From positions 3,968,001 through 4,032,000 of the forward strand of contig NZ_CP046564.1 in the NCBI RefSeq assembly GCF_009818105.1: a DNA stretch of 64,000 nt, given 5' to 3'. The notes beneath the pieces are model-generated. The model searched no databases. It was not told where the DNA came from and worked only from the letters and a program-made list of their open reading frames with translations. This document shows positions 19,755-34,672 of the stretch, piece by piece. Position 1 is the stretch's first letter. Each line of letters starts with the position of its first letter. The stretch is from Bacillus sp. N1-1. Its GTDB lineage: Bacteria > Bacillota > Bacilli > Bacillales > Guptibacillaceae. Position numbers and translations under genes: made by a program.

Positions 19755-21116
19755 ATGATGTTACAAGAACAAGTTGTCACAACCAGCGAAAAACGATATC
19801 AAAAAGAATTACCCGCTCTCCCTCTCACGACAATCTGGTTAATTAGTTTCGGTTTTTTAGGTGTACAGATGGCCTTCTCATTGCAAAGTGCAAACATGGG
19901 ACGAATTTTCCAAACCCTTGGTGCAGATCCTCATAATCTTGGATTGTTCTTTATCTTACCACCACTCGCAGGACTAATCGTCCAACCTTTAGTTGGTTAT
20001 TTCTCAGACCGGACCTGGATCCCAGGGCTTGGTCGACGTATTCCTTATCTACTCGTTGGTGCTGTTGTTGCTGTCATTGTGATGTGTCTATTGCCCAATT
20101 CAGGTAGCTTTGGATTTACTGCAGTGACAGCCATGACGTTTGGAGCGATTGCCATTTTGTTTATGGATGTCTCATCAAACATGGCGATGCAGCCTTTTAA
20201 AATGATGGTTGGGGATATGGTAAACAAAGAGCAAAAAGGGTTTGCCTATTCGATCCAAAGCTTTCTATCAAATAGTGGTGCTGTATTGGCTAGCATTTTT
20301 CCTTTTGCGTTAACACTTATAGGTGTATCAAATAGTGCACCAAAAGGAGTTATCCCACAATCGGTCGTCATTTCTTTTTATGTCGGCGCAGGTGTTTTAA
20401 TCATTTGTAGTCTCGTTACCGTATTGAAAGTAAAAGAGTATACACCAGATGAGTTTGCCGTTTATCACGGCATTTCAAAAGAATCGACGAAAGAAAAAGT
20501 AAACATTTTTAAATTACTTGGAAGCGCTCCAAAAGTATTTTGGACCGTTACCCTCGTTCAATTATTTTGCTGGATGGGTTTTCAATACTTATGGACGTAT
20601 GGCACAGGCGCCATTGCGTTAAACGTTTGGAATACGAGTGACCCTTCAAGTGCGGCTTATCAAGATGCCGGAAACTGGTTTGGGATTTTAACAGCGGTTC
20701 AGTCGATTGGAGCAGTACTCTGGTCTCTTGCCTTATCCCGAATTCCAAATAACTCACGGAAATTCTACTACTCGATTAGCTTATTGCTAGGTGGAATCGG
20801 GTTTGGTTCTGTCTTCTTCGTTCACAATCAGTGGGCACTCGTTATTTCCTTTACGTTAATCGGAATTGCATGGGCAGCGATGATGACCTTCCCATTCACG
20901 ATCCTAACGAACGCGCTGAAAGGCAAAAACATGGGTACATACCTTGGGCTGTTTAACGGTAGTATTTGTTTGCCACAAATTATCGCATCATGCTTAAGCT
21001 TTGTACTCTTCCCATTGATCGGGTCTTCTATGCCGTTTATGATCTTGCTTTCGGGTGTGTTCCTTGTCGTTGGGGCGTTGTCTGTACCTGTTATTAAGGA
21101 GACGTATGCGAAGTAA
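19755..21116 (+). CDS. MFS sugar transporter (SLC45/maltose-permease-like)
   Basis: A 453-residue major facilitator protein with about 12 hydrophobic segments. PLVGYFSDRTWIPGLGRRIPYLLVG is the loop 2-3 signature of the SLC45/sucrose-maltose transporter branch of the GPH-like MFS (long D-R-x-x-P-x-G-R-R-x-P motif). The second half carries LFNGSICLPQIIAS, also typical. It probably imports a disaccharide such as maltose in symport with a cation. ATG or TTG start next to AGGAGG. Two LacI-type operators upstream suggest sugar induction, matching the pullulanase and glucosidase in this window. Confidence 0.82.
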   Translation: MMLQEQVVTTSEKRYQKELPALPLTTIWLISFGFLGVQMAFSLQSANMGRIFQTLGADPHNLGLFFILPPLAGLIVQPLVGYFSDRTWIPGLGRRIPYLLVGAVVAVIVMCLLPNSGSFGFTAVTAMTFGAIAILFMDVSSNMAMQPFKMMVGDMVNKEQKGFAYSIQSFLSNSGAVLASIFPFALTLIGVSNSAPKGVIPQSVVISFYVGAGVLIICSLVTVLKVKEYTPDEFAVYHGISKESTKEKVNIFKLLGSAPKVFWTVTLVQLFCWMGFQYLWTYGTGAIALNVWNTSDPSSAAYQDAGNWFGILTAVQSIGAVLWSLALSRIPNNSRKFYYSISLLLGGIGFGSVFFVHNQWALVISFTLIGIAWAAMMTFPFTILTNALKGKNMGTYLGLFNGSICLPQIIASCLSFVLFPLIGSSMPFMILLSGVFLVVGALSVPVIKETYAK

Positions 21117-21171
21117 GAGAACGGAACTTAGAACTAGCAAGACGAAGTAGTCAATTTTCATTCCTAAACAT

Positions 21172-21204
21172 AAAGACACACCAGAACGCTTCTGGTGTGT
21201 CTTT
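21172..21204 (+). terminator. Terminator after MFS gene
   Basis: AAAGACACACCAGAA and TTCTGGTGTGTCTTT form a perfect 15-bp stem with a 3-nt loop. Confidence 0.85.
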
Positions 21205-21372
21205 AATTATGATTACAATACTTAAAAGCTATTGCTGTAATAAACGGTGCGCTGCTGCCTAGTTTAGCGTGGACAATCCATTCTATACATAAAGAACAAT
21301 AAAAACTTAAACACTTTTCAAAATTATGGTACTTTAATCATATTACAGTTTTTATAGTAAGGAGGGAACATT

Positions 21373-21705
21373 CTGTCTATTTATAGTCAAATGTTGAAAG
21401 GTCTACTGGAAGGAAGTATCCTTTCGTTAATTTCCAAAAAGGATACTTATGGATACGAATTGCTTGAAAAGCTAAGAGAAGGGGGATTTCTTCATGTAAG
21501 CGACGGCACTATTTATCCATTACTTTTAAGGTTAGAAAAAGAAAAACTAATAGAAAGCTATACTCGTCCTTTCGAAACAGGGCCTAGAAGAAAGTATTAT
21601 TTCATTACCGAAGAAGGTTTACTAGCTTTAAAAGAAATACAGGATTATTGGAAAGACTTGAAAAAATCCGTGAATTTGTTTATGGAAAATGAAGAGGTGA
21701 AATGA
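21373..21705 (+). CDS. PadR family regulator, probable CTG start
   Basis: A small winged-helix repressor (110 residues from CTG, 104 from the ATG at 21391). PadR homologs normally begin with M-S-I-x-S-Q-M-L-K-G, and that sequence is encoded here from a CTG at 21373, which sits 6 nt after AAGGAGGG; the ATG at 21391 has no ribosome site of its own. The helix-turn-helix spans about residues 10-90 (KKDTYGYELLEKL, DGTIYPLLLRLEKEKLI). It is coupled by ATGA-type overlap with the HAAS-domain gene and probably represses the downstream MacAB-like exporter. Confidence 0.85.
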   Translation: MSIYSQMLKGLLEGSILSLISKKDTYGYELLEKLREGGFLHVSDGTIYPLLLRLEKEKLIESYTRPFETGPRRKYYFITEEGLLALKEIQDYWKDLKKSVNLFMENEEVK

Positions 21706-22211
21706 TGAATAGTATTCAAAGGCACAAGTTTACATTATCAAAAAATAATCGAGATAAATATAACGAGTTTTGTTTATTTGTAAATAGTAGCAATATCGAT
21801 ACAGAAGCCAAAAATAAATTAAAAGATGAAATTTTAGACCATCTCATTGAAGGTGAAAAACACGGCAAAACATTTGATGATTTATTTAGTGAAAATCCTA
21901 GAGAATACTCACAACAACTAATAGACATGCTACCTAAAGCAACTTTTAAAACAAAAGTGCGTTTCTTCTTAAGCGTTATCTTTATATCAATTATTATTAA
22001 TATACCTATCCTGTTTTTCAGCGATTCAGCTTCGGAATTTTTATTCACTCTAGTATCCTTCCCATTATTGGCAGGGGTTTTGTCACTGCTTTGTTTCCGC
22101 ATATTTAAAGTTACGGTTTTCAAGAATTCTTTTAAATATATAATTGCCATTATCTTAGTGATTCAATTAATATCGATCGTCTATGTTTATTTCAAAAATG
22201 CTATCATATAA
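21702..22211 (+). CDS. HAAS-domain membrane protein (PadR partner)
   Basis: A 169-residue protein whose start overlaps the padR stop. The N-terminal cytosolic HAAS-like helical domain (about 10-85; KNKLKDEILDHLIEGEKHGKTFDDLF) precedes three hydrophobic segments (about 90-110, 112-135, 142-165). Proteins of this build (DUF1129/DUF1700 type) usually accompany PadR regulators and membrane-stress operons. Their molecular role is not settled; they may sequester the regulator or sense the membrane. Start ATG at 21702 or 21705. Confidence 0.75.
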   Translation: MMNSIQRHKFTLSKNNRDKYNEFCLFVNSSNIDTEAKNKLKDEILDHLIEGEKHGKTFDDLFSENPREYSQQLIDMLPKATFKTKVRFFLSVIFISIIINIPILFFSDSASEFLFTLVSFPLLAGVLSLLCFRIFKVTVFKNSFKYIIAIILVIQLISIVYVYFKNAII

Positions 22212-22291
22212 GAGTTTGCAAAGATTTTACCCAGTTAATCACGAAACCCCTCCTCTTATGTAAATCCTATAGTAAATTCCATTCTTATTTT

Positions 22292-22308
22292 TATATGATA
22301 CTCATATA
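22292..22308. promoter_or_regulatory. Putative PadR operator before MacAB-like operon
   Basis: TATATGA, TAC spacer, TCATATA: a perfect 7-3-7 inverted repeat 30 nt upstream of the adaptor gene start, in the promoter region. PadR proteins bind AT-rich repeats of this sort. Confidence 0.5.
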
Positions 22309-22338
22309 AGGCTTGTATAACAAAGGTGGGATTTACAT

Positions 22339-23463
22339 ATGAAAAAGAAGATAATTTTAGGTAGTGTTACTGTCGGAATTCTCAGTTTGGTTCTAATTAA
22401 CCTATTTATTTTTCAAGGCGATCAAGAGACAACTGTAAAAGCTGAAGAAGAAACATATATCGTAGAGGAAAAACGTTTAACCGATGTTATTAACGTCGGT
22501 GGTGAGGTAAAGCCAAAAAATCAGGAAACTTATTATATTGACACATCTATAGGGAGTTTAAAGGAGTTATTGGTTGATGACGGTGAGGAAATCGAAATTG
22601 GAAGTCCTTTGTATTCTTATGAAAACCCTAAATTATTAGATCAGTTGGAACGAGCTGAGTTATCAAAAAGTCGTGCTCTTATTCAATTAGAACAATTAAA
22701 CAGTCAGGAAGATAAATTAAATGAAGGTTCTAATGATGATGAAGGAGAATTTACTCCCAACGCAATAGGTGTAGATAAAGAATCGATCAAATTTGATCGA
22801 AGATTAGCAAATTTAGACTACAAAGAAGCAGAATTAGAAATTTCATCTTTACATAAAGAAATTAATGAACTGACTATCCATAGCAAAATGAAAGGCATCG
22901 TTAAAATAGTTGGGAATGACCTCTCACTTGGGTCTCCAAATAGCACTGTCCCCCTTGTAACTGTTGTGTCTGAAGGAGAGTATTTGGTTTATGGTAAACT
23001 TCCCGAATATGATTCTCCATTAGTTAACCCTGGAATGAAAGTTAAAATTAAAGCAAAGGCAGTGCCTGATAAAGTCTATGAGGGTGAAATTGTAAGTGTT
23101 TCTTCCTTACCTGATAATTTATCAGAAGGTGAAGATTCTTCTGGTAACAAGGAGTCCATGTACACCTATAAAGCAAAGTTTAAAACCTCTCCAAAAGAAA
23201 TGAAATCTGGATACTCTGTAAATATTGAAGTTCAGATAGACCGAAAAGATAAACAACCTATTATCCCTATAGAAAGCATTGGAACAGATGAAAAGGGAGA
23301 ATATATCTTCTTGAAAAAAAGTGAAGAAAATATAGAAAAGACCTATATTGAAGCCGGCGTCATTAATGAAGGATATAGGGAAGTATTAAATGGACTTAAA
23401 GTTGGAGATGAAATCCTTGCTTCAGTTGAAGAGTCTGATTTAGAAAGTGACAAGAGCAAATGA
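22339..23463 (+). CDS. Efflux adaptor subunit (HlyD/MacA-like)
   Basis: A 374-residue membrane-anchored adaptor with one N-terminal helix (about residues 5-25), a short beta-barrel start (VEEKRLTDVINVGGEVKP), a coiled-coil segment (about 100-190, with an acidic Gly-Ser-Asn linker) and a C-terminal barrel region. This is the Gram-positive YknX/MacA type that stabilises a MacB-like permease. The ATPase start overlaps its stop by 4 nt. Ribosome site AGGTGGG. Probable substrate class: peptides or antibiotics. Confidence 0.85.
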   Translation: MKKKIILGSVTVGILSLVLINLFIFQGDQETTVKAEEETYIVEEKRLTDVINVGGEVKPKNQETYYIDTSIGSLKELLVDDGEEIEIGSPLYSYENPKLLDQLERAELSKSRALIQLEQLNSQEDKLNEGSNDDEGEFTPNAIGVDKESIKFDRRLANLDYKEAELEISSLHKEINELTIHSKMKGIVKIVGNDLSLGSPNSTVPLVTVVSEGEYLVYGKLPEYDSPLVNPGMKVKIKAKAVPDKVYEGEIVSVSSLPDNLSEGEDSSGNKESMYTYKAKFKTSPKEMKSGYSVNIEVQIDRKDKQPIIPIESIGTDEKGEYIFLKKSEENIEKTYIEAGVINEGYREVLNGLKVGDEILASVEESDLESDKSK

Positions 23464-24155
23464 TTAAATTGGAGAGTGTAAATAAAACCTATAAAGTCGG
23501 AAATGTGGACGTCCCCATTCTAAAAGACATAGATTTATCCATTGATAAAGGGGAATACGCTTCAATAATGGGGCCTTCTGGTTCCGGAAAGTCCACTTTA
23601 ATGAATATTATCGGGATCTTAGATCGTCCAACTCGAGGTCACTATATATTTAATGAAGAAAATATAAAAAACAAAAATCCAAAAACACTAGCTAGTTTGC
23701 GAAATCAATCAATTGGATTCGTGTTCCAAAGCTTTCATTTGCTACCCAGAATAACAGCAGTCGAAAATGTTGAGCTGCCATTAATCTATGGTGGTTATAA
23801 AAGAAGTGATAGAAGAGAAAAAGCAATTTATGCTCTAGAAAAAGTAGGGTTAGTTGATCATATGAAGCAATATCCTAATCAACTTTCAGGAGGGCAAAAA
23901 CAAAGAGTTGCCATTGCTCGTGCAATTATTAATGAACCTTTATTAATATTGGCAGACGAGCCAACGGGTGCTTTAGATACAAAGACTGGCGAAAAAATAA
24001 TGGAGATATTCACCCAATTTAATAAAGAAGGTCACACAGTTGTATTAGTTACTCATGAATTAGAAATAGCTCACTGCGCAAACCGGATAATAAATATTAG
24101 AGATGGGAAAATAGCAGAAGATCGGAGGCTATCTTACGATGAATTTTTGGGATAG
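23460..24155 (+). CDS. ABC transporter ATPase (MacB/LolD class)
   Basis: A 231-residue nucleotide-binding subunit. Walker [10 protein letters not shown] near residues 37-45, Q-loop [10 protein letters not shown], signature LSGGQKQR, Walker [11 protein letters not shown] and the D-loop/H-loop (LVTHE) are intact. The ADEPTGALD motif is characteristic of the MacB/LolD/FtsE group. It overlaps the adaptor gene at its start and the permease gene by 17 nt at its end, so the three are translationally coupled. Confidence 0.93.
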
Positions 24156-25329
24156 TTTCAAGATCTCTCTAAATGCAATTGCTGGTCACAAGATGCGTTC
24201 TATACTAACTATGCTAGGGATTGTCATTGGCGTGAGTTCTATTATTATAATTGTATCTATCGGTCAGAGTGGTGAGAAAGCTTTAAAATCTAACTTAGCT
24301 GGTTCAGACAACAACACGATTGATATGATGTTCACTTATGATGATGAAAATAAAAACTATAGTAATGAAGCTCTCACCTATACTACGCGTGACATAGAAA
24401 ATCTCCAATCAATTCCTGAAATAGAAAAAGTAGTACCTAAAAATACGGAGTACACTACTATTTCTGGTTCCAAGCAGTCCAAAACTGTTGAAATGATTGG
24501 TATTACATCACAATACTACTTTTTAGAAAACTTGGAAGTTAATGAAGGAAGAGAGATATCTTCATTTGAAATGAGTAATTCTAGAAGAGTCGCTTTATTA
24601 AATGAAAAGACCGCAAAATCTTTATTTAATTTAACAAGCCCTGTTAATCAGTATATAGAAGTAAACGGAATATCTGTTAAAATAATTGGCGTTTATCAAG
24701 AAGACATTCCTGTAGAACTTCAAACCGAAAAAGTATTAATACCACTACAAGCCTGGCCACTTATATTTAATACAGAAGAAATCACCTCACTCACGATCGT
24801 AGCGGACAAGATAGAGAACATGCAAGCAGCTGGTGAAAAAGCAGTTTCAATGATGAACAACACTAAAGAAGTGAGTGAGGAAGGTACTTTTGAAGTACTC
24901 AACATGAAAGAAATCCAAGACGGTATTGCCTCCATCACTAAGATCATGACTGGAATTGTCGGCGCTATAGCTAGCATCTCACTATTTGTTGGTGGAATAG
25001 GTGTTATGAATATAATGCTAGTATCAGTTACTGAACGAACGAAAGAAATAGGGATTAGAAAAGCTTTAGGAGCCTCACGAGGAAAAATACTTTTACAATT
25101 CTTAATTGAGTCAGCCTTTTTAACGTTCATTGGCGGTGTCATTGGAATTGTTATTGGCTACTGTGGCTCTTACCTATTTTCACTATTTTCTGATTGGCCC
25201 TTTACTGTTTCAATCCCAATCATAGCGATAGGTTGCTTATTCTCTATGGCAATAGGGGTAGTTTTTGGCATTATGCCCGCCAACAAAGCCGCAAAACTAG
25301 AACCTATTGATGCCTTAAGATATGAGTAA
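24139..25329 (+). CDS. MacB/FtsX-type ABC permease
   Basis: A 396-residue permease with the family's four-helix layout: one N-terminal helix (AIAGHKMRSILTMLGIVIGVSSIIIIVSI region), a large extracellular MacB-PCD domain (about 50-260), and three C-terminal helices with TERTKEIGIRKALGASRGKIL and the PANKAAKLEPIDALRYE end motif. The motifs place it with YknZ/MacB-like exporters of antimicrobial peptides or toxins. Last gene of the PadR-linked operon. Confidence 0.92.
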   Translation: MNFWDSFKISLNAIAGHKMRSILTMLGIVIGVSSIIIIVSIGQSGEKALKSNLAGSDNNTIDMMFTYDDENKNYSNEALTYTTRDIENLQSIPEIEKVVPKNTEYTTISGSKQSKTVEMIGITSQYYFLENLEVNEGREISSFEMSNSRRVALLNEKTAKSLFNLTSPVNQYIEVNGISVKIIGVYQEDIPVELQTEKVLIPLQAWPLIFNTEEITSLTIVADKIENMQAAGEKAVSMMNNTKEVSEEGTFEVLNMKEIQDGIASITKIMTGIVGAIASISLFVGGIGVMNIMLVSVTERTKEIGIRKALGASRGKILLQFLIESAFLTFIGGVIGIVIGYCGSYLFSLFSDWPFTVSIPIIAIGCLFSMAIGVVFGIMPANKAAKLEPIDALRYE

Positions 25330-25460
25330 GAAACTCATCTTACATTCAAAAAATGATAACCACCTGGCTACTAATTGATTTACTTCAGAAGTGCAGAATG
25401 TAAAACCGCATAGCGATTCGCAGTAAACTTCACATGCTATATCACATATGAAATCACACT

Positions 25461-25496
25461 AAAAGAGCTTGGAGATGCTATTTCAAGCTCTTTTTC
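25461..25496 (+). terminator. Terminator after MacAB-like operon
   Basis: AAAGAGCTTG and CAAGCTCTTT form a 10-bp stem with a 12-nt loop, followed by TTT. Confidence 0.75.
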
Positions 25497-26014
25497 CTTC
25501 GTTTTTCTGTTAAAGCTCCTCGTTTCTTGAAAGCTGATTTCGAGACACTTTCCTTTGCTTATTTAAAAAGCATGTATATGCATTAATTTAATAGAAACCT
25601 TTAAGTTTTAAAATAATAGATAACATACTCCAGAACACAGCTTGTTTAACCTTTTACTTTCCTCAATTAAGATCTTGATTACTGAGCAACGTCGGAAATG
25701 AGCTGCTACATCTTAATTTCTGTCGCTCCAGCGTTGATTATAGTCCTAGTATTGGAGATATACAATTTTCTCCGCAGCCCCTTTTCGCCTGGCGAGATAT
25801 TCATCGTTTTGTGCGCTTTAATTCACTTTGATGGTCCGTTCAATGATATTCTCCAAGCCACTGTACACGACGCTGGTATGGTGAAAATACTTCTGTGAGA
25901 AAGGCAATGTGTCGATCATAAAGTTCCTTTAAACAATCGTATTTAGTATCGAGCGAGACTACGCACCATTTTTATACAGGCTTATATTTTATAACATCTG
26001 CACTACCAAATAAA

Positions 26015-26043
26015 AAACAATCAATAATTTATTGATTGTTTTG
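26015..26043 (-). terminator. Terminator of the circular bacteriocin operon
   Basis: AAAACAATCAAT and ATTGATTGTTTT form a 12-bp stem directly after the stop codon of the DUF95 gene, with a T-rich tail on the minus strand. Confidence 0.75.
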
Positions 26044-26044
26044 T

Positions 26045-26566
26045 TCATATCGATTTTGGTGTAATAAACCCTTCTATAAACGAGGCTAAGAATAAGAGAA
26101 GAACAATCGATCCGACTATATAAGAAAGTCTTTTCCAACTCTTTTTTTCTGTATAAAACTTCAGTCCATATAACCCCAAATAGCCGGCTAAAATAAGTGC
26201 TGGTATTTCAAACAAACCATGAGGTACTACTGCTAGAAATAATTCCGTCACACCCATACCACTTAAGTAATTTCCAGCTAATACTCCTCCCAACCAAAGC
26301 CCATTAAGAAATAAAATAGGTACAGTAGGAATCCCGAATAGCAAAATACCGGAAACTAATAATAAAACCACTTTTAAATTTTGAATAAAGAAAAATAGAG
26401 AACCTTCAAATCCTTCTCTCTTATCATAATAATTTTCAGAGTTCATCCCTAGTACAGCTGTTTCAGTATTAACTGAGAGTATTAAAGTGATTCCAAGGAT
26501 CATACCTCCAACAAAAAGAATAATCGAAAACAATAATAATGACTTGTCTTTTAGTAATATATTCAT
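26045..26566 (-). CDS. DUF95/SpoIIM-like membrane protein of bacteriocin cluster
   Basis: A 173-residue membrane protein with about five hydrophobic segments. ATG 26566 is chosen because AGGTGG lies 5 nt upstream. The central motif PHGLFEIPALILAGYLG is the signature of the DUF95/stage II sporulation protein M superfamily. A DUF95 protein is a constant member of circular bacteriocin clusters (AS-48, circularin A, carnocyclin), where it is needed for maturation, secretion or immunity. It lies directly after the four structural genes on the same strand, supporting the cluster call. Confidence 0.85.
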   Translation of the reverse strand: MNILLKDKSLLLFSIILFVGGMILGITLILSVNTETAVLGMNSENYYDKREGFEGSLFFFIQNLKVVLLLVSGILLFGIPTVPILFLNGLWLGGVLAGNYLSGMGVTELFLAVVPHGLFEIPALILAGYLGLYGLKFYTEKKSWKRLSYIVGSIVLLLFLASFIEGFITPKSI

Positions 26567-26641
26567 ATCAACCACCTAAAGGTTTGATTTTTTCCATGAT
26601 TAATGGTATATATAGTAAATATATGTATTAGTTATACTTAA

Positions 26642-26668
26642 AGAGCAACGAGGATGAGTCGTTACTCT
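26642..26668 (-). repeat. Hairpin after bacteriocin copy 4
   Basis: AGAGCAACGA and TCGTTACTCT pair with one mismatch around a GAGGATGAG-type loop. The same loop occurs in the hairpins between copies. Confidence 0.6.
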
Positions 26669-26685
26669 AAAAGATTGATTAGATA

Positions 26686-26889
26686 TTAGTAAGCTACTGC
26701 GGTCTTCTTAGCTCCTTTTTTCAGCAATGATTGTGCTGTAAGGATAAGAGCTGAAGTTAAACCAAAGCTTGCAAACAAGGAAATTAAAGCCAGTACCGTT
26801 GATCCTGCTTCGATCGCGGATACAATTACATTAGCCCAGTACTGGGAAATACCTAGTGCGCCGGCAATGAATGCAAAAATGAATTCCAT
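26686..26889 (-). CDS. Circular bacteriocin precursor, copy 4 (variant)
   Basis: A 67-residue precursor, last of four tandem copies. It differs from the other three by Gln for Glu in LGIS-E-YWAN and Gln for Arg in LTA-R-SLL. By alignment with circularin A (leader MFL, core VAGALG) and uberolysin (leader of six residues, core LAGYTG), I infer a leader MEFIFAF and a 60-residue core from Ile8 to Tyr67, joined head to tail. The core is hydrophobic with a basic patch LLKKGAKK, typical of pore-forming class I circular bacteriocins. Ribosome site GGAGGAAG. Confidence 0.85.
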   Translation of the reverse strand: MEFIFAFIAGALGISQYWANVIVSAIEAGSTVLALISLFASFGLTSALILTAQSLLKKGAKKTAVAY

Positions 26890-26915
26890 GTTTTCTTCCT
26901 CCTTTCTTGGGGAAA

Positions 26916-26949
26916 TGTTCTTGTAACGAGATGAGTCGTTACAAGAACA
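26916..26949 (-). repeat. Hairpin between bacteriocin copies 3 and 4
   Basis: TGTTCTTGTAACGA and TCGTTACAAGAACA form a perfect 14-bp stem with a 6-nt loop, without a T-run on the minus strand. It could attenuate transcription or protect the upstream mRNA. Confidence 0.7.
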
Positions 26950-26965
26950 ATTAACTAATTAAGTA

Positions 26966-27169
26966 TTAGTAAGCTACTGCTGTCTTTTTAGCTCCTTTTT
27001 TAAGCAATGATCTTGCTGTCAGGATAAGAGCTGAAGTTAAACCAAAGCTTGCAAACAGGGAAATTAGTGCCAGTACCGTTGATCCTGCTTCGATCGCGGA
27101 TACGATGACGTTAGCCCAGTACTCGGAGATACCTAGTGCGCCAGCAATAAATGCAAAAATGAATTCCAT
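26966..27169 (-). CDS. Circular bacteriocin precursor, copy 3
   Basis: A 67-residue precursor encoding the same protein as copies 1 and 2 (Glu form). Short leader, inferred 60-residue core beginning IAGALGIS and ending KKTAVAY. Own ribosome site GGAGGAAG 6 nt before the ATG. Silent nucleotide differences from copies 1 and 2 show that it is a separate tandem duplicate and not an assembly repeat. Expected to be made as a leader peptide, exported and cyclised. Confidence 0.87.
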   Translation of the reverse strand: MEFIFAFIAGALGISEYWANVIVSAIEAGSTVLALISLFASFGLTSALILTARSLLKKGAKKTAVAY

Positions 27170-27200
27170 GTTTTCTTCCTCCTTTCTTGGGGAATTGTAT

Positions 27201-27225
27201 TTATAACGAGGATGAGTCGTTATAA
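27201..27225 (-). repeat. Hairpin between bacteriocin copies 2 and 3
   Basis: TTATAACGA and TCGTTATAA form a perfect 9-bp stem with a 7-nt GGATGAG loop, at the same place as the hairpin between copies 3 and 4 but with compensating base changes in the stem. Confidence 0.65.
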
Positions 27226-27243
27226 GAACGAACTACTTAAGTA

Positions 27244-27447
27244 TTAGTAAGCTACAGCCGTCTTCTTAGCTCCTTTTTTAAGCAATGATCTTGCCGTCAG
27301 GATAAGAGCTGAAGTTAAACCAAAGCTTGCGAACAGGGAAATTAGTGCTAGTACCGTTGATCCTGCTTCGATCGCGGATACGATGACGTTAGCCCAGTAC
27401 TCGGAGATACCTAGTGCGCCAGCAATGAATGCAAAAATGAATTCCAT
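27244..27447 (-). CDS. Circular bacteriocin precursor, copy 2
   Basis: A 67-residue precursor, protein identical to copies 1 and 3. Amphipathic hydrophobic helices (ANVIVSAIEAGSTVLALISLFASFGL) and a cationic C-terminal helix (SLLKKGAKK). Ends in aromatic Tyr, which with the aliphatic first residue of the core fits the circularisation junction of circularin A (Val-Tyr) and amylocyclicin (Leu-Trp). Ribosome site GGAGGAAG. Confidence 0.87.
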   Translation of the reverse strand: MEFIFAFIAGALGISEYWANVIVSAIEAGSTVLALISLFASFGLTSALILTARSLLKKGAKKTAVAY

Positions 27448-27523
27448 GTTTTCTTCCTCCCTTCTTTATTTTCTATTACAGGGTTGAGTGATCACACTAA
27501 TAAAATCATGTTTGTAACGAGCA

Positions 27524-27727
27524 TTAGTAAGCTACAGCCGTTTTCTTAGCTCCTTTTTTAAGCAATGATCTTGCTGTCAGGATAAGCGCTGAAGTTAAAC
27601 CAAAACTTGCGAACAGGGAAATTAGTGCCAGTACCGTTGATCCTGCTTCGATCGCGGATACGATGACGTTAGCCCAGTACTCAGAGATACCTAGTGCGCC
27701 AGCAATGAATGCAAAAATGAATTCCAT
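27524..27727 (-). CDS. Circular bacteriocin precursor, copy 1
   Basis: A 67-residue precursor, first of four copies in transcription order and 43 nt after the Yip1-like gene. ATG 27727 lies behind GAGGAGGTG; three extra in-frame codons upstream overlap that site and are not counted. Protein identical to copies 2 and 3. The gap to copy 2 lacks the hairpin seen between the later copies, so copies 2-4 and their spacers probably arose by amplification of a gene-plus-hairpin unit. Confidence 0.87.
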   Translation of the reverse strand: MEFIFAFIAGALGISEYWANVIVSAIEAGSTVLALISLFASFGLTSALILTARSLLKKGAKKTAVAY

Positions 27728-27770
27728 CTTTTTCACCTCCTCTCAATGGCAGTATATTTATATTGCTTGC

Positions 27771-28463
27771 TTATCCCAATAACGCTGGAATAATTGAAGC
27801 AATGATAGTGAAACCAATCCAAGTCAGTGCAATAACACTTATACTTTTTTTGGTGGACACTTGGACACATACCCCTACTCCTAAACCAATTAGCAAAATA
27901 CTCCAGATATTAAAAACTTCAATACTATTAAATAAATTTGTTAAAAAGAGCGAGTCAACAAAATTCTGAACGGTAAACCCTAAACTTGTTATTGGAGTTG
28001 TGACTGTACCCTGATCTATGAAAAGGAGATTAATGAATTTCCCGATGAGTATAGGTACTTGAGCAATTAATACGATATGGAACAGACCCTTAAAAGTTAA
28101 TCGTATTTTACATAAGTGAAGTATTAATTTGTAAAGTGCTGTTGTTATTAATAAACTAAACAACAATTGAATGACAGAGAAAATACTCGTTCCAATATAC
28201 AAAATTAAATATGTACTTTCATTTTGCAATTCTGGAGATAACAATGATATCACTTCGTTAGATTTCACTAAGTCTTTTGCTAAGAAGAAGGATATGATTC
28301 CATACAACACTAAGATGATGTAGGCATTCATCCCTATTTTACGATCTATCCTCAGACTAGAAAAAAAATTAGTAGGTTGAATAAATACATCTAAAAGACT
28401 AGAAGGCTTGTAGGAAGCCTTTCTTCTTTCAGGAGCTTCTGCTACTTTTTGTGCAACACTCAT
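27771..28463 (-). CDS. Yip1-family membrane protein of bacteriocin operon
   Basis: A 230-residue protein with a soluble N-terminus (PSSLLDVFIQPTNFFSSLR) and five hydrophobic segments (about 48-63, 85-112, 128-150, 180-200, 207-228). The layout and the N-terminal P-x-x-F-F motif match the bacterial YIP1 family. It opens the operon carrying the bacteriocin genes, with AAGGAGG before the ATG. Yip1-like proteins occur in several bacteriocin clusters; a role in maturation, export or self-protection is inferred only. Confidence 0.7.
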   Translation of the reverse strand: MSVAQKVAEAPERRKASYKPSSLLDVFIQPTNFFSSLRIDRKIGMNAYIILVLYGIISFFLAKDLVKSNEVISLLSPELQNESTYLILYIGTSIFSVIQLLFSLLITTALYKLILHLCKIRLTFKGLFHIVLIAQVPILIGKFINLLFIDQGTVTTPITSLGFTVQNFVDSLFLTNLFNSIEVFNIWSILLIGLGVGVCVQVSTKKSISVIALTWIGFTIIASIIPALLG

Positions 28464-28605
28464 TTTTTAATCCTCCTTGTGTATTTCGAATATGAGTTCA
28501 TAATACTATAAAAAAGGGATATTTAAACATTAATTACCTATTGTGACTATTTTTGCTCTTTTTGGGGGTAATAATTGAACTATCTTATAAATGAAATCAA
28601 TAAAA

Positions 28606-28640
28606 AAGAGCAGCACTTCAGGTAAAAGTGCTGCTCTCTT
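28606..28640 (-). terminator. Terminator between ABC exporter genes and bacteriocin operon
   Basis: AGAGCAGCACTT and AAGTGCTGCTCT form a perfect 12-bp stem; the minus-strand side continues in TTTTTT. It separates the permease-ATPase-58-residue unit from the Yip1/bacteriocin unit, which therefore needs its own promoter in 28464-28600. Confidence 0.85.
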
Positions 28641-28662
28641 TACGATAAATTCAATGGATCAT

Positions 28663-28839
28663 TTATTTCTTGTTGGCGTTTTTAATATATCCGAAAGTTG
28701 TAATAGATAAAATCCCGATCAAAATAATTCCAATAATGAACGAATCTGTCAAATTCCCCTGGTACATTGAAAAAACGAGTGGGGGGATTGCAAAGAGAAA
28801 AAATATAACAGAAGATGTAATAAAAAGTTTTTTACTCAT
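28663..28839 (-). CDS. 58-residue two-helix peptide, candidate immunity protein
   Basis: A small gene starting directly after the ATPase stop (TAA then ATG) and ending in KNANKK. It has two hydrophobic segments (about residues 5-24 and 31-50) and a basic tail. Small cationic two-helix peptides of 50 or so residues encoded beside the ABC genes provide immunity in circular bacteriocin clusters such as circularin A (CirE) and AS-48 (As-48D1). The position and shape fit that role, but the sequence itself gives no family match that I recognise. Confidence 0.7.
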   Translation of the reverse strand: MSKKLFITSSVIFFLFAIPPLVFSMYQGNLTDSFIIGIILIGILSITTFGYIKNANKK

Positions 28840-29553
28840 TTAGTTTACTCCTTCACTCAAAGTTCTTATAAAATAATCTTCAAGACTATTATCTTTATTT
28901 GTAACAGCTGCAACGTCAATATTGGATTGTAAAACTTCACCATTATTGATGAATATCAAACTTTCGCAGAAATTTTGAGCAACCTCCAGTTGGTGAGTAG
29001 ACAATAATATGGAATTACCTTCATTAACATAATTCCTTAGTATTGTTTTTGTTTTCTTCATATTAATAGGATCAATACCTGAAATGAATTCATCTAATAA
29101 TAGTAACTTAGGGTTATTTAACAATGTAGTTAATAACGTTAGTTTTTTCTTGTTGCCTAACGATAAATTCTTTATTTTTTTCCCAACTTCGTTTTGCAAA
29201 TCAAAATACTTCACTTTTTCTCCAATAATGGCTTTATTAACTCGAATTTTAAATAGTTCTGCCGTAAAACGAATGTATTCTTCCCCTGTTAACTCATCAT
29301 ATAGAAAAGGATAATCAGGAATAAACATAACATCTTTTTTGGACTTATCGATTGGTTTCCCCAGAAATTGAACCTCTCCTGAATCAATATCCATTAGACC
29401 TGATGCAATTTTTAAAGAAGTCGTTTTTCCAGCACCGTTTTGTCCTAAGAACGCTATAATCTTGCCAGTGGGAATGTTGAACGTCATATCTTTCAATATC
29501 TTTTTATTCCCGATTGTTTTTGAAACTTGATTAAAGGATAATAACGGTTCCAT
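28840..29553 (-). CDS. ABC transporter ATPase of bacteriocin cluster
   Basis: A 237-residue ATP-binding subunit. Walker A GQNGAGKTT near residues 37-45, a YDELTGEEY Q-loop region, signature LSLGNKKK (degenerate form of LSGGQ, common in drug/bacteriocin exporters of the EcsA/BcrA group), Walker B LLLLDEF and H-loop STHQ. It is 12 nt after the 593-residue permease gene and probably drives it. In circular bacteriocin systems such an ATPase supports secretion and immunity. Confidence 0.9.
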   Translation of the reverse strand: MEPLLSFNQVSKTIGNKKILKDMTFNIPTGKIIAFLGQNGAGKTTSLKIASGLMDIDSGEVQFLGKPIDKSKKDVMFIPDYPFLYDELTGEEYIRFTAELFKIRVNKAIIGEKVKYFDLQNEVGKKIKNLSLGNKKKLTLLTTLLNNPKLLLLDEFISGIDPINMKKTKTILRNYVNEGNSILLSTHQLEVAQNFCESLIFINNGEVLQSNIDVAAVTNKDNSLEDYFIRTLSEGVN

Positions 29554-29565
29554 AAATCAACCTCC

Positions 29566-31347
29566 TTACAAAGATAGTTGCTCAATTTTTGATAGTTTTC
29601 TCAACTTATTCCGTGCAAATAACATAAAGAATATTAGTGAAAAGAATAAAAGGATAGCTTCTCCCCATTGAATTGCCAATAAAGTGGAAAGATTTATATA
29701 GTCTGTTAAGTAAAATGCTGTAGGAATCATACAAGCTGGAATAAATACCCCAACGATTAAATATCTAACAATTCCCTGTATTGAATTTTGATCAGGATAG
29801 TCTTCCAATTGTTCAATATTAATGTAGTTAAAATGTGGACTAATAATTGATGGCAAAAATAACAAAGCTGATAAGAACAAGAAGGAGAAACAGTGAATAA
29901 CGACAATGACTGCAGCTTCTACTAACTTTATTTTGGAGAATATGATCAGTGTTAGATCTGCCACTATTAATAAAGGATAGGTATAGATAATAAATAATAA
30001 ATATTTATATTTGAATACTTCCCATACCGTTTTTCCAGCTAATAAATGAATAATGACGTTTTTCCCTTCACTATCGACTGAAAAAAACCCTGTTAGTTCA
30101 CTATAGATTGAAGCAATATGAAAATAGACAAAGAAGAATAAATAAAAAGATAAAATAAAATAATAGATTTTCTCTCCAGGATTCAAACCTGTCATAAAAC
30201 TCACCATTAAACCGAGTTGAAACCAAAAAAGAAAGGATCCAGTTAATACAGGGAACCGATATAAGAAATAGTCTCCTCTTAACAGATGCTTTACCTGCAT
30301 GCGAGTATAATTTGACTTCCCAAAAATTTTAGATGGAATTAGTTTTTCAATGATAGTAAAGGGATAGAAATTCTCTGATCGGTTTTTGGATTTTAATTGC
30401 GTAATAGTAAACATGAAAGCAAATAAAACAATACAAGCTAAAACCAACATGACCCCATCGAAAATGCGAACTTCATCAAATAATAATGATGCCAAAAAAT
30501 TATGAGGGAAAATTGGGTATTTAAAAATGACGGTTAACGGAGTGAGCAAGTCTTTGACCACTTCGGCTCCCTGGCTAAGCCAGTCGTTATACTTCGCTAC
30601 ATCAACATCATTCGACGTAAGTGGAAAAGACTTGATCCAGGGAGTTAATATTTTTCCTCCAAAAAAAGCTAGCGTCACTATCACCATTCTTATCAATAGA
30701 TTAAAGAACAAACGGAAGTAAAAATGAAGTCTGGTTCTTTGAGAACTCAAGTAATGATAATGCAGAACTGAAGTGACTAAACCAATACTAATAAATAAAA
30801 ACAGAGTCAAAATGACAATACCCACTACTCCGACCATATTCATATCTGTTAACAATGAAAGAGCTATAATAATCGGCACATAACTGAAAACGTAATCTTT
30901 AACATCCCACACAATAGCCTCTAAGTATAAAAATAGTCTAGCAGTTTGAGACTTTACTTTCGCATGAATCTCCAACCATTCGTGATCCATTGAATGTAAT
31001 TGCCATTTAGAAGAACTAATTCCCGAAAGTACCGAAAATAGGAAAATTATAAAAAACAACAATGACCACAAGACTTCAATATGTGTGTTTAAGTAAGAAA
31101 TTGCCTGGCTTAAAGTAGTTAAAATAATACTATTTGAAGAAGTATTATCAAGAAGGTATTGATTGAATACAGTTGCCTTTAATAAGAAATAGGTTCCAAA
31201 CAATATCATGAAAAAGTTAACTATACTTAGTAAAAGTGCTGCTATCCAAAACCATTTTCCACCGGGGATTTTTTTAAAAAAGGTTATATAGTTCCATTGC
31301 GCTTTCCATCTGATCATTAGTTTCCATTTAATCCATGAAATGACCAT
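29566..31347 (-). CDS. Large ABC exporter membrane subunit
   Basis: A 593-residue membrane protein with about 14 hydrophobic segments, starting with a basic amphipathic stretch (WIKWKLMIRWKAQW). I recognise no precise family; the size and layout fit EcsB-like or ABC-2-type exporter subunits. First gene of the permease, ATPase, 58-residue peptide unit, transcribed away from agrC. Probable role: export of, or immunity to, the circular bacteriocin. Start ATG 31347 behind GGGCGGTG, a weak site. Confidence 0.8.
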   Translation of the reverse strand: MVISWIKWKLMIRWKAQWNYITFFKKIPGGKWFWIAALLLSIVNFFMILFGTYFLLKATVFNQYLLDNTSSNSIILTTLSQAISYLNTHIEVLWSLLFFIIFLFSVLSGISSSKWQLHSMDHEWLEIHAKVKSQTARLFLYLEAIVWDVKDYVFSYVPIIIALSLLTDMNMVGVVGIVILTLFLFISIGLVTSVLHYHYLSSQRTRLHFYFRLFFNLLIRMVIVTLAFFGGKILTPWIKSFPLTSNDVDVAKYNDWLSQGAEVVKDLLTPLTVIFKYPIFPHNFLASLLFDEVRIFDGVMLVLACIVLFAFMFTITQLKSKNRSENFYPFTIIEKLIPSKIFGKSNYTRMQVKHLLRGDYFLYRFPVLTGSFLFWFQLGLMVSFMTGLNPGEKIYYFILSFYLFFFVYFHIASIYSELTGFFSVDSEGKNVIIHLLAGKTVWEVFKYKYLLFIIYTYPLLIVADLTLIIFSKIKLVEAAVIVVIHCFSFLFLSALLFLPSIISPHFNYINIEQLEDYPDQNSIQGIVRYLIVGVFIPACMIPTAFYLTDYINLSTLLAIQWGEAILLFFSLIFFMLFARNKLRKLSKIEQLSL

Positions 31348-31603
31348 TTCACACCGCCCTCTATCTTGTAATGCAATATATACGAGTATAAAAGTTGATT
31401 AAACCTTACTCTATGTAAACTTAAATCAAAGATACCATTATATCTAGGGTCTAGAAGTATTAAGGCCATTTTCATGTAAATTAAGGGGCTTTTACGTCAT
31501 AAATGGAGAATACAAAAAAAGCGATTCCAAGCTACTGTTGGATAATTTTTGAATACGTGTTATCTTTGTATCATAAAATAGGTAGGAAAATAGGAGTACG
31601 GAT

Positions 31604-32923
31604 ATGGATTATTTTTTCAAGATCTTTGGGATTTTTATGGAGTTTTTCGCTATTTTATTTTTCTGTACAGCTTTCTTAAGTATTGATATTAAAAAAATAT
31701 ATAGAAATGAATTTCTGGCTATATGGTTTCTGGGAAGTATAGGGGTTTTTTTGTTCCAAACTTTTATCACAGTACCTCCATACATAAATTTCAGTATATC
31801 TTTGGGTATTTTGCTTTTACTTATTTCAACCCTTATGAAAGTAAGATTGTTAATATCTCTCGCTATAGTCGTTCTTAGTTCGTGTCTATTTATCTTCTTC
31901 GAGTTTGTGTCACTTTCTATTCTCGATAATTTTTTTGACGTCTATTTAATTTTAGAGCAGACTTCCCTAGCCCGTGTTTTAATTTCTTTGCCACATATAT
32001 GTGCACTGGTATTAATCTCCATGCTTTTTTATGTGTTCAGAATATCTTTTATTCCATGGAAGATCATTCACTCTGAAAAACTAGATAAGCATAATAAAAA
32101 ACACTTTCATAAATATATTACTTTCTTGTTCATTAATTTAGCTTTCATCATTATTATGGTTTTCACAGTTTCATATAGTGAATTTTATTTAGGAATTGAA
32201 AGCAAAGGAGCATTTTTCGTCATCATTTTGTGCACTACGTATCTACTGTTTTTTTCTCAGCAACTATTAAAAGAAGAAACAAAACGCTTAGAGCAACATC
32301 TCGACGAACAATATCAAGAGGATGTCACCAAATATTTCCGACTTATAAAATCTCAACGACACGATTTTGTACACCATTTAAACACTCTCTATGGCCTTAT
32401 ACTCCAGGACAATACACAAGCAACTAGAGAATACATTTCCGAATTAATTGAGGATGTCAGAACCACAAATGAATCACTCCCTTTATCTCATCCTGCGATG
32501 TCAGCTTTGTTGTTAACTTTAAAACAAAAAGCTTCTATGAGGGGAATTGACATGGCCATTATTATTAACTCTCCCTTCGAATCGTTGCCTTGCCGCGTTT
32601 CAGAAATAAGCAGAGTTATTGGAAATCTAATTGATAATGCTATTGAGGAACTAACTCCACTTCCTCAAGAAGAAAAATGGATTGAAGTCATATTAGATGC
32701 AGATGGAACAGATTACACCATCTTAATATCGAATTGCGGAGAAATTGAAGAAAGTATCTCTCAAAGTATTTTTGATTATAATTTTACGACAAAAGAGGGA
32801 GATCACCAAGGACTAGGTTTACCTGAAACAAAAAGGATTGTAGAAAGCTATAACGGTTTAATCTATCTTGAAATAGATGAGGGATATACTAGTTTTATTG
32901 TGTCTCTCCCAATAGCTACTTAA
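31604..32923 (+). CDS. agrC: AgrC-like sensor histidine kinase
   Basis: A 439-residue peptide-pheromone receptor kinase. Six to seven N-terminal hydrophobic segments (about residues 1-220) form the sensor; the cytosolic part has the AgrC-type phosphorylation motif SQRHDFVHHLNTLYGLI near residue 260 and a GHKL ATPase with NLIDNAIEE and GLGLPETKRIVE. The HPK10-type H-box with no classical HisKA is diagnostic of AgrC/CitA-like quorum kinases. AGGAG lies upstream. It is divergent from the bacteriocin exporter genes and 19 nt before agrA. Confidence 0.88.
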   Translation: MDYFFKIFGIFMEFFAILFFCTAFLSIDIKKIYRNEFLAIWFLGSIGVFLFQTFITVPPYINFSISLGILLLLISTLMKVRLLISLAIVVLSSCLFIFFEFVSLSILDNFFDVYLILEQTSLARVLISLPHICALVLISMLFYVFRISFIPWKIIHSEKLDKHNKKHFHKYITFLFINLAFIIIMVFTVSYSEFYLGIESKGAFFVIILCTTYLLFFSQQLLKEETKRLEQHLDEQYQEDVTKYFRLIKSQRHDFVHHLNTLYGLILQDNTQATREYISELIEDVRTTNESLPLSHPAMSALLLTLKQKASMRGIDMAIIINSPFESLPCRVSEISRVIGNLIDNAIEELTPLPQEEKWIEVILDADGTDYTILISNCGEIEESISQSIFDYNFTTKEGDHQGLGLPETKRIVESYNGLIYLEIDEGYTSFIVSLPIAT

Positions 32924-32942
32924 TGATGAAGGAGGAAGTAAA

Positions 32943-33692
32943 TTGAATAAGTTTAACGTATTGATCGTAGATGATGAACCGAATTGTAATTACATACTTA
33001 AAAGTCACTTAAACAACTACACAGATATAGAAAACATTTATGAATTTACAGATAGCAGAGCTGCTTTAAACTACTTAGAAGAAAATCCAGTTGATTTAGT
33101 CTTTTTAGACATTGACATGCCTAATATGAACGGGCTCACGTTAACGAAAGAGTTAAAAAACAAGTCTCCTGAGATTTCAGTGGTTTTTGTTACTGGGCAT
33201 ACAGATTATGCATTATATGGATATGAGCTGTATCCTTTAGACTTCTTAATAAAGCCTATTAACCCTTTACGCTTAGAACAATGCTTAACACATTTCAGAA
33301 AAATACACACTAATCCAAAAGTAAGTGGTTCTGTAGAAAGAAATACATCTGGAAAAAAAATCAGCGTTCGAAGTTCAGGTTCTATTTGCTTTATCAATGT
33401 TAAGGATATAAATTTCATCGAAAAAAGAATTCGAAAATGTGTGATCAATACGGGGGATAATAAAGAAATTGAATGCAATCACACCTTGAGTGAACTTGAA
33501 AAAATGCTTGGCAGGCATGGTTTCATTCGCCCTCATCAATCGTTTTTGATACCTTTAGATAAAATTAGTGAAATAAAACCTGATGAATTTATGAAATCCT
33601 ATGTAATTGAGATCGAAAATGTTAAAGACGAAATTAGAGTAAGTAAAAATCGTTATAAAGAATTGAAGGAAATCATTTTAGAAACGCTATAA
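32943..33692 (+). CDS. agrA: AgrA-like LytTR response regulator
   Basis: A 249-residue regulator with a receiver domain (about 4-122; acidic DDE near residues 10-12, phospho-Asp in VFLDIDMPNMNG, Lys in FLIKPINP) and a C-terminal LytTR DNA-binding domain (about 140-245; INVKDINFIEKRIRKC, RPHQSFLI). TTG start behind AAGGAGG. It presumably activates the bacteriocin and agr promoters upon phosphorylation by AgrC. LytTR proteins bind paired direct repeats; I could not identify such repeats with confidence. Confidence 0.9.
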   Translation: MNKFNVLIVDDEPNCNYILKSHLNNYTDIENIYEFTDSRAALNYLEENPVDLVFLDIDMPNMNGLTLTKELKNKSPEISVVFVTGHTDYALYGYELYPLDFLIKPINPLRLEQCLTHFRKIHTNPKVSGSVERNTSGKKISVRSSGSICFINVKDINFIEKRIRKCVINTGDNKEIECNHTLSELEKMLGRHGFIRPHQSFLIPLDKISEIKPDEFMKSYVIEIENVKDEIRVSKNRYKELKEIILETL

Positions 33693-33860
33693 TTATACTC
33701 TTAAATAATAAACTTCAATTTCTTAAATAGGTCGAAATTATGTATAAGTGATCCGTATTGTTGTCTAAGTATGTAATATTTTAACTTTTTATACCATTTA
33801 AATACAAAATTAACTAGAGATTTATGCTACTATATACCTGAGATTAAACAGGAGGTTGGT

Positions 33861-34475
33861 ATGAGTGCTTTTAGTCCTAAATTAATAGCCACCAAATTTT
33901 CAGAAAGAGCAATTCTATTTGGTAATATTGATCCACGTGAGAAAGATCGAATTCGCTATGGTTTGGAATGGGGTATATCTGGCTTTTATCAAATTGCTCT
34001 TACTCTATTGATAGGATATTCGGTTGGAATATTTATGGAAACTCTTTTAGTTTTAACTACAATCTCATCTTTAAGACTTTTTGCAGGTGGAGCTCATTTT
34101 TCTAACTTTAACTATTGTTTAATAGCTAGTGTAAGCTTGATTATTGGAATTGCATTCTCAGGCCCTTTTCTACTTCATATTTTTTCTAATGTAAATACGC
34201 TCTTACTTATTACATATCCAATTTTGCTGGCTTTTCTTTGGAACTATGCTCCAGTTCTATTTAAAAAACGTAATAAAAAATCCAATCGTGAAATTCAACA
34301 AGCAAAACACATCTCAATCACCATATCAGCTGCTTTTATGTTGCTAAGTTTTTGCTTACCCGATATATACGCTTTAGCGATATATACTTCTTTATTTTTC
34401 CAGGTCTGCACTATTACCCCTTTTGGCATTAAAATAATTCATTTTATCGATTCTAAATTAACGAAAAGGAGATAG
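33861..34475 (+). CDS. agrB: AgrB-like pheromone-processing membrane protease
   Basis: A 204-residue membrane cysteine endopeptidase with about five helices. The catalytic pair is visible: His in LRLFAGGAHF and Cys in NFNYCLIAS, seven residues apart as in staphylococcal AgrB (R-x-x-x-G-G-x-H...C). AgrB cleaves the C-terminus of AgrD and forms the thiolactone. AGGAGG precedes the ATG. The AgrD gene follows after 4 nt. The 168-bp gap after agrA suggests a separate promoter. Confidence 0.92.
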   Translation: MSAFSPKLIATKFSERAILFGNIDPREKDRIRYGLEWGISGFYQIALTLLIGYSVGIFMETLLVLTTISSLRLFAGGAHFSNFNYCLIASVSLIIGIAFSGPFLLHIFSNVNTLLLITYPILLAFLWNYAPVLFKKRNKKSNREIQQAKHISITISAAFMLLSFCLPDIYALAIYTSLFFQVCTITPFGIKIIHFIDSKLTKRR

Positions 34476-34479
34476 GATC

Positions 34480-34605
34480 ATGTTTAAAATTAAAAGTAGC
34501 TTTTATGCTTCAGTAGCCACACTAGGACTAGTTTTAGCAAACATCACTGCAGGAACAACTTGCTTTTTGGGGTTATACGAACCTGACCTTCCAGATGAGG
34601 ATTAA
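34480..34605 (+). CDS. agrD: AgrD-like autoinducing peptide precursor (41 residues)
   Basis: A small gene 4 nt after agrB with AAAAGGAGAT as ribosome site. The precursor has an N-terminal amphipathic helix (FKIKSSFYASVATLGLVLA), a core with a single Cys (ITAGTTCFLGL) and an acidic tail YEPDLPDED. The order Cys-four residues-YEP matches Listeria AgrD (CFMFV-YEP), so I infer a five-member thiolactone ring C-F-L-G-L with an N-terminal tail of unknown length. The C-terminal acidic Pro-rich recognition region is shorter than in Staphylococcus. Confidence 0.88.
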   Translation: MFKIKSSFYASVATLGLVLANITAGTTCFLGLYEPDLPDED

Positions 34606-34623
34606 GCTAATTGCCTTAAATAC

Positions 34624-34672
34624 TTAATATAAAATCCTGATTCCTTTTAGGGGAATCAGGATTTTATATTAA
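34624..34672 (+). terminator. Strong terminator of agr locus
   Basis: Perfect inverted repeat of 21 bp (34624-34644 with 34652-34672) around a 7-nt loop; core ATCCTGATTCC / GGAATCAGGAT. The gap 34673-34821 shows no gene. Confidence 0.85.

Follow-up and report, generated by a model that had tools for sequence, protein, structure and literature searches.

Described relatives and the predicted peptide

Flexusin A, a circular bacteriocin of Bacillus flexus R29-2, has been described, on mass-spectrometric evidence, as a circle of 60 residues, with a ring mass of 6098.43 Da measured vs. 6098.29 Da calculated and a linear form of 6116.63 Da that was almost inactive (PMC11943950, available portion). 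Its precursor comprises 66 residues with the leader MEVVAY, and its gene occurs in three duplicate copies with a similar gene directly upstream. According to the same portion of that paper, no immunity gene could be recognised, and a lepB signal peptidase is proposed to remove the leader. Circular bacteriocin clusters with multiple structural genes were also described in 2020 for strains of the B. cereus group (PMC7132975, available portion). A literature search returned no work on bacteriocins in Pseudalkalibacillus.

The locus investigated here lies in a 64,000-nt stretch of DNA from Bacillus sp. N1-1, the whole of which is referred to as the window. We propose, with a probability of about 0.88, that it is a chromosomal locus encoding a circular bacteriocin of the flexusin A type, a model that takes in processing, protection, and agr control. 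The genes, their identities and conservation, the covariation, and the purifying selection are directly observed, whereas transcription as an operon, the circular form, antibacterial activity, the factors for processing, the role in immunity, and regulation are inferred. An earlier note on this DNA had assigned its precursor genes to the circular bacteriocins, and profile searches bore this out. Three copies submitted to TIGR03651 gave E values of 1.3e-9 to 1.8e-9 (37.8–38.3 bits against a cut-off of 30.7), and two copies submitted to PF09221 gave 3.7e-7 to 7.2e-7 (29.8 and 30.7 bits against a gathering score of 23.6). Across the whole genome (one contig, 4.50 Mb), these four precursors were the only matches at E ≤ 0.001. 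Profile A1 matched two solved circular bacteriocins, NKR-5-3B at E 4e-6 and carnocyclin A only weakly at E 0.03. The cluster also encodes a SpoIIM/DUF95 protein, an ABC transporter, and a putative small membrane immunity protein, as expected for the circularin A/uberolysin family.

The predicted precursor consists of a 7-residue leader and a 60-residue core, Ile8–Tyr67, with a net charge of +3 and a GRAVY of 1.0. The core is identical to flexusin A at 57 of 60 positions (95%), with differences at positions 17 (S/T), 31 (L/M), and 46 (R/K), the same length, and the same ends; the leader differs, MEFIFAF in the window as opposed to MEVVAY. Given the flexusin A leader MEVVAY (PMC11943950, available portion), both cores begin at the Ile chosen in the earlier note, and the 60-residue boundary coincides with that of a mass-supported relative. 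The short leader that had been claimed was likewise upheld, at seven residues, its boundary being taken from the flexusin A mass data. Average masses calculated for the cyclic core were 6094.15 Da (copies 1–3) and 6065.10 Da (copy 4), and those for the linear core were 6112.16 Da and 6083.12 Da, respectively. Applied to flexusin A, the same calculation gives 6098.20 (6098.43 measured; PMC11943950, available portion), and an exact mass prediction is now available for the window peptide. Linear or leaderless peptides of circular-bacteriocin descent are very improbable here. Such a reading draws on the maturation mechanism of circular bacteriocins, which the available portion of PMC11943950 calls not fully elucidated, but flexusin A, 95% identical, was measured as a ring, and in linear form it had almost no activity (same source).

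A protein search returned five relatives with 78–99% identity across the aligned region; those with names come from Priestia flexa (two entries), Bacillus sp. HMSC76G11, and Peribacillus. In genome G094, precursor copies 2–4 match the flexusin A precursor exactly. Circularin A shares with the window peptide the TIGR03651 profile, AGALG after the first core residue, a short leader, and an aromatic last residue. We know of neither tandem copies nor agr genes for circularin A. It is, however, less than 50% similar to flexusin A (PMC11943950, available portion). As judged from its sequence, the window peptide is an additional flexusin-type circular bacteriocin, of a kind already characterised and with a predicted circular form, and the cluster would extend the flexusin type to a second genus.

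The four-gene precursor array

The precursors form an array of four head-to-tail 204-nt ORFs on the minus strand at 26686–27727 (Table 1), with a repeat unit of 253 nt, a unit-to-unit spacing of 280, 278, and 280 nt, and inter-copy spacers of 74–76 nt. Four tandem genes, three of them encoding one protein and each with its own ribosome site, had been claimed previously; ORF coordinates and translations agree with this, and a ribosome site precedes every ATG by 8 nt (AGGAGG in copies 1, 3, and 4 and GGGAGG in copy 2). A 70-aa version of copy 1, starting at an upstream GTG according to the ORF caller, was set aside in favour of the ATG at 27727, which has AGGAGG 8 nt before it. Matches above the curated cut-offs, together with the same four-gene array between the same flanks in the related genome G009, indicate that the array is not a chance occurrence.

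Table 1. Features of the bacteriocin locus, in window coordinates.
Feature	Position	Strand	Remarks
PadR regulator and DUF1129 membrane protein	21391..22211	+	present in 4/4 clusters compared
HlyD-like/MacB-type ATPase/FtsX permease accessory transporter	22339..25329	+	
SpoIIM/DUF95-type membrane protein, presumed maturation/secretion factor	26045..26575	-	PF01944, E 9e-28
RNA hairpin after copy 4, before spoIIM	26642..26668	-	z -4.4; counterpart in both Priestia-type clusters
Precursor copy 4	26686..26889	-	67 codons; variant E16Q/R53Q
RNA hairpin, spacer after copy 3	26920..26945	-	z -5.4 (folded region)
Precursor copy 3	26966..27169	-	67 codons; protein identical to copy 1
RNA hairpin AACGA-loop-UCGUU, spacer after copy 2	27200..27226	-	z -2.2 (folded region)
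Precursor copy 2	27244..27447	-	67 codons; protein identical to copy 1
Precursor copy 1 (first in putative operon)	27524..27727	-	67 codons; leader MEFIFAF, core IAGALG...AVAY
Yip1-domain (YknW-like) membrane protein	27771..28463	-	PF04893 over cut-off; NF052650 below
Terminator-like hairpin at boundary between presumed protection genes and YIP1-precursor unit	28603..28641	-	
58-aa lysine-rich protein, presumed immunity protein	28663..28839	-	two hydrophobic stretches by eye
ABC transporter ATPase	28840..29553	-	PF00005
593-aa hydrophobic protein, presumed ABC permease partner	29566..31347	-	no family match
AgrC-like GHKL sensor kinase	31604..32923	+	PF14501
AgrA-like LytTR response regulator	32943..33692	+	PF00072 and PF04397
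AgrB	33861..34475	+	PF04647, E 6e-28, 97.9 bits vs. cut-off 23
AgrD, predicted ring CFLGL then YEPDLP	34480..34605	+	TIGR04223, 27.1 bits vs. 19

Copies 1–3 are under purifying selection. Among them, 11 sites vary in 201 nt, and all 11 are third-position and synonymous; with a probability of 0.266 that a random change is synonymous, this outcome has a chance probability of ~5e-7 if sites are independent. Adding copies 1–3 of G009 gave 15 variable sites, again all third-position (15/15), and further adding copy 4 of the window and of G009 gave 28, of which 4 were first-, 1 second-, and 23 third-position. Because every difference among copies 1–3 is synonymous, dosage is favoured over diversification: the extra copies have been kept identical in protein while their DNA drifted, and four copies, three with one product, would increase the amount of precursor.

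Same-position cores differed between the window and G009 by 5, 6, 3, and 5 nt (copies 1–4), and each of window copies 1–3 differed by 6–9 nt from the other two of positions 1–3 in G009. Spacers matched position by position between the two genomes, and no decayed copy was seen. The same-position differences and position-specific spacers suggest that the array predates the split between the window and G009. At the larger scale, copies differed by 36–46 nt across the two genera, by 3–21 nt within the probable Pseudalkalibacillus pair (window and G009), and by 0–26 nt among copies 2–4 of the two Priestia-type clusters (0–11 within one cluster, 21–26 between), ranges that omit Priestia-type copy 1, which is 70–77 nt from all other copies and 41 nt apart between the two clusters. 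Neighbouring copies are thus more alike than are same-position copies across genera, a pattern consistent with either gene conversion or independent expansion, between which 180 nt are too few to choose.

These data bear on whether the array is a functionally neutral tandem duplication in which a single copy would suffice, which we regard as unlikely. Tandem arrays arise easily by recombination, and the cores of copies 1–3 are only 6, 8, and 6 nt apart in 180 (15–20 nt for copy 4 vs. them), but the fully synonymous divergence, the apparent age of an array free of decayed copies, and the recurrence of four-gene arrays on P. megaterium plasmid NZ_CP059459.1 and in G094 all argue against neutrality. 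Slightly less doubtful, yet still improbable, is that the copies widen the activity spectrum through a mix of slightly different rings, as the available portion of PMC7132975 proposes for multi-gene clusters. The E16Q and R53Q changes of copy 4 would fit such a mix, as would the first copy in the P. megaterium and G094 clusters, which is only 50–55% identical to the window's copies. Three of the four products are identical, however, both in the window and in G094, and most of the array therefore cannot diversify the product. In the plasmid and G094 clusters, copy 1 (L039:10740-10940 on the plasmid and L042:12165-12365 in G094) starts with GTG.

Increased dosage, the reading preferred here, had been called unusual for its fourfold extent, and this holds as a rate. 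TIGR03651 exceeded its cut-off in 23 of 397 genomes of the order, with tandem copies in four of the 23 (four each in the window's genome, G009, and G094, and two in G133), a count from a profile that misses divergent relatives such as the two tandem precursor-like genes of G396. Three further genomes (G116, G307, and G382) had several matches, on different contigs or ~31 kb apart. In a sample of the phylum, 7/398 genomes passed the same cut-off, and only the window's genome (G000) had more than one copy. As a novelty the claim did not stand, given the clusters described in 2020 (PMC7132975, available portion) and the flexusin A copies; the four-gene array is uncommon yet known. The available text of an in-silico survey (PMC8534725) does not use 'copies', 'tandem' or 'duplicat'. 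Compared by cluster layout alone, the clusters in the available portion of PMC7132975 (Fig. 5) resemble the window in having several precursor genes (two or three there) and one presumed immunity gene, but they have an independent putative promoter per copy, whereas the promoter scan here gave no minus-strand hit in the three inter-copy spacers.

Other arrangements were observed among the wider relatives. In G133 (L043:9421-10262), two tandem, near-identical precursors of at least 95 aa with a long leader occur with a different membrane gene set. G396 (L104:11753-12236) has a tandem pair of distinct precursor-like genes, of 70 and 74 aa, between YIP1 and SpoIIM; they had no TIGR03651 or Pfam match, were reached by tblastn with the window copies at E 5e-5 to 1e-3, and possibly represent an unrecognised circular-bacteriocin subfamily. 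A single 61-aa precursor-like gene lies between YIP1 and SpoIIM in G116 (L103:9136-9321), assigned by place and size, with no Pfam match and no tblastn match to the window copies.

Hairpins also accompany the array. The loop-side stem half AACGA/UCGUU occurs after copies 2, 3, and 4 and is absent after copy 1 (z +0.3). The hairpin after the last copy was present in 4/4 clusters compared, and those after copies 2 and 3 were found only in the window and G009. In an alignment of eight hairpin sequences (five distinct), 98% of cells pair, a percentage favoured by construction because the stem was chosen from the same sequences, and 5 of the 10 stem pairs were changed on both sides. None of 500 shuffles reached the covariation score, and slid controls gave a maximum of 0.29 vs. 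0.56; the count of both-side-changed pairs was reached in 13/500 shuffles and the number of pair types in 25/500. Terminator function was considered for the precursor hairpins and rejected, as the terminator scan lists none of them; a role in stability or processing is therefore more likely than one in termination. The hairpins would probably protect the precursor segments of the transcript or separate them from the downstream spoIIM part. Rfam gave no family match in 19000–37000, and no tRNA was found in the window.

Partner genes and the agr module

On the minus strand, the order is the 593-aa gene, the ABC ATPase, the 58-aa gene, the terminator-like hairpin, YIP1, the four precursors, and SpoIIM. 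The plus strand carries the GHKL kinase, LytTR regulator, AgrB, and AgrD genes and, beyond SpoIIM, PadR, DUF1129, and the HlyD/MacB/FtsX set. The clusters compared with the window were those of G009 (L041), the P. megaterium plasmid (L039), and G094 (L042). All three share the precursors, YIP1, 58-aa, ABC, 593-aa, SpoIIM, GHKL, LytTR, AgrB, AgrD, and PadR genes. Both G009 and the P. megaterium plasmid gave matches to the HlyD/MacB/FtsX set; in the G094 stretch, only a 38% identical ATPase near its end matches the set. The flexusin A-type cluster of G094 has the same partner genes and the same gene order from LytTR to SpoIIM, and the window cluster, like that of flexusin A, combines three identical copies with a similar gene. 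The G094 cluster differs in that the odd copy is copy 1 rather than copy 4, the spacers are 32–39 nt without such hairpins (in the window, two of three carry hairpins), and AgrBD lies beside PadR instead of LytTR.

According to the proposed model, the four precursors would probably be transcribed in a YIP1-precursors-spoIIM unit. The 7-residue leader would then be removed and Ile8 joined to Tyr67 by the YIP1- and SpoIIM-type membrane proteins and the ABC transporter; the resulting 60-residue ring, cationic and hydrophobic, would damage the membranes of Gram-positive competitors. The 593-aa protein, the ABC ATPase, and the 58-aa protein, the last with no TIGR/Pfam family match over cut-off, may form a self-protection module. 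Natural loci in which only these three presumed protection genes, the sensor, and the regulator are kept point to a candidate immunity module, a function unrecognised in the available portion of the flexusin A paper (PMC11943950). A promoter scan gave fewer sites than shuffled sequence (30 found, 42 expected) and hence lends the operon model no support, nor do single hits carry weight; nine terminator-like sites were found in 25300–35000 vs. 4.7 expected in shuffles. Between the terminator and the YIP1 start (28464–28602), a CCCC run and AATGTTTA recur in five upstream regions, a possible regulator site.

At high density, the cluster would probably be turned on by the neighbouring agr-type circuit, made up of an AgrB/AgrD signal, a GHKL sensor, and a LytTR regulator. 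The residues CFLGLYEP are identical in AgrD of the window, G009, the P. megaterium plasmid, and G094, whereas between genera AgrB is 39–41% identical and AgrD 47–52% identical over its matched 30–33 residues. The ring is presumably a Cys plus four residues, cut before YEP, by analogy with staphylococcal AgrD. In agr systems the signal region is usually the variable part, so the identity of the CFLGL ring across genera is unexpected. In its AgrB and AgrD profiles, GHKL kinase, and LytTR regulator, the module resembles the agr system of staphylococci and Listeria; it differs in adjoining a circular bacteriocin cluster and in this cross-genus ring identity. AgrBD lies directly downstream of the kinase/regulator pair in the window and G009 and beside PadR in the P. 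megaterium plasmid and G094. The plasmid AgrD gene is absent from the gene table and was located by tblastn. An AgrD protein search gave one near-identical copy only, and plasmid searches gave only the P. megaterium AgrD and AgrB. A direct-repeat search of promoter regions for LytTR binding sites gave only scattered, unconserved repeats, so the regulatory link between agr and the cluster rests on gene neighbourhood. AgrB (PF04647) was not found in the wider relatives G396 and G116, which have precursor-like genes, and agr control is therefore not general. Full-text literature, in which subscription journals are mostly uncovered, returned no report linking circular bacteriocins and agrD.

Loci without precursor genes and the chromosomal site

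Of the 397 genomes of the order, 13 had matches to the 593-aa protein, and the surroundings were read for 11 of them (all except G141 and G251). Precursors or precursor-like genes lie beside the gene in 5 of the 11 (G000, G009, G094, G116, and G396). Five others (G006, G225, G308, G301, and G359) have the 593-aa/ABC/58-aa unit with no precursor, SpoIIM, or intact YIP1 in the stretch read, although G006 still carries a YIP1 fragment that matches 109 residues. The G143 match lies on a contig of 6.7 kb that also carries SpoIIM and ABC relatives, and it was assigned to neither group. The GHKL-LytTR pair is kept in 3/5 of the precursor-less loci (G006, G225, and G308). The diverse precursor profile A3 found nothing in these five genomes at E ≤ 0.1; it recovered G000, G094, G396, and G116, plus one weak extra match in G116 (E 0.02), a recovery that is not an independent control because all four contributed rows. 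PF04647 detected AgrB in two of nine genomes, G000 and G094, and in none of the five precursor-less genomes, G396, or G116. The assemblies of G225 and G308 are drafts of 260 and 40 contigs, respectively, and in G225 the contig breaks off just past the 58-aa gene, so absence in these two rests on genome-wide searches.

The partial locus of G006 is on P. hwajinpoensis plasmid NZ_CP156675.1. Compared with the window, dN/dS was 0.06–0.08 for the kinase, regulator, ATPase, and 58-aa genes and 0.17 for the 593-aa gene, with no stops in any of the five. These values span both lineages and so give no date for the loss of production genes. The distribution suggests a protective function for the 593-aa/ABC/58-aa unit, which some strains may keep with the receptor as resistant listeners. 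That the GHKL/LytTR pair senses the bacteriocin directly, rather than an agr signal, and so induces protection seems rather unlikely. G006, G225, and G308 do keep the pair with the presumed protection genes and have no AgrB by PF04647, but AgrB and AgrD genes are present in 4/4 flexusin-type clusters compared. Control by an agr circuit, the reading we prefer, can be carried further: flexusin-type bacteriocins may be run by a signal shared across genera, on which receptor-plus-protection non-producers would eavesdrop and arm in advance, a tentative proposal to which we give somewhat less than even odds. If true, non-producers that lost or never had the production genes would hear producers. The receptor-plus-protection loci open agr control and listening across species to experimental test in a circular bacteriocin system. 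Beyond a known kind of peptide, the less expected findings are the neighbouring agr system and these loci in relatives.

The cluster occupies ~13.7 kb between its flanking genes and has a GC content of 0.33 vs. 0.40 in the rest of the window. The genes flanking the slot (21117–34821) encode an MFS transporter and a DnaQ-like protein, both named by eye, and the G009 cluster lies between the same flanking genes. In three sister genomes (G005, G011, and G013), the slot is empty, with flank matches 211–239 bp apart. Five others (G002, G004, G007, G008, and G010) have flank matches 8–27 kb apart and other DNA in the slot; among the four whose ORFs were read, G007 has, by eye, polysaccharide-type genes and G002, G004, and G010 have mixed content. 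No close DnaQ-like match was found in G001, G003, G006, and G012. The slot between the MFS and DnaQ-like genes is thus variable, and the same cluster type is plasmid-borne in P. megaterium, as is the partial locus in P. hwajinpoensis.
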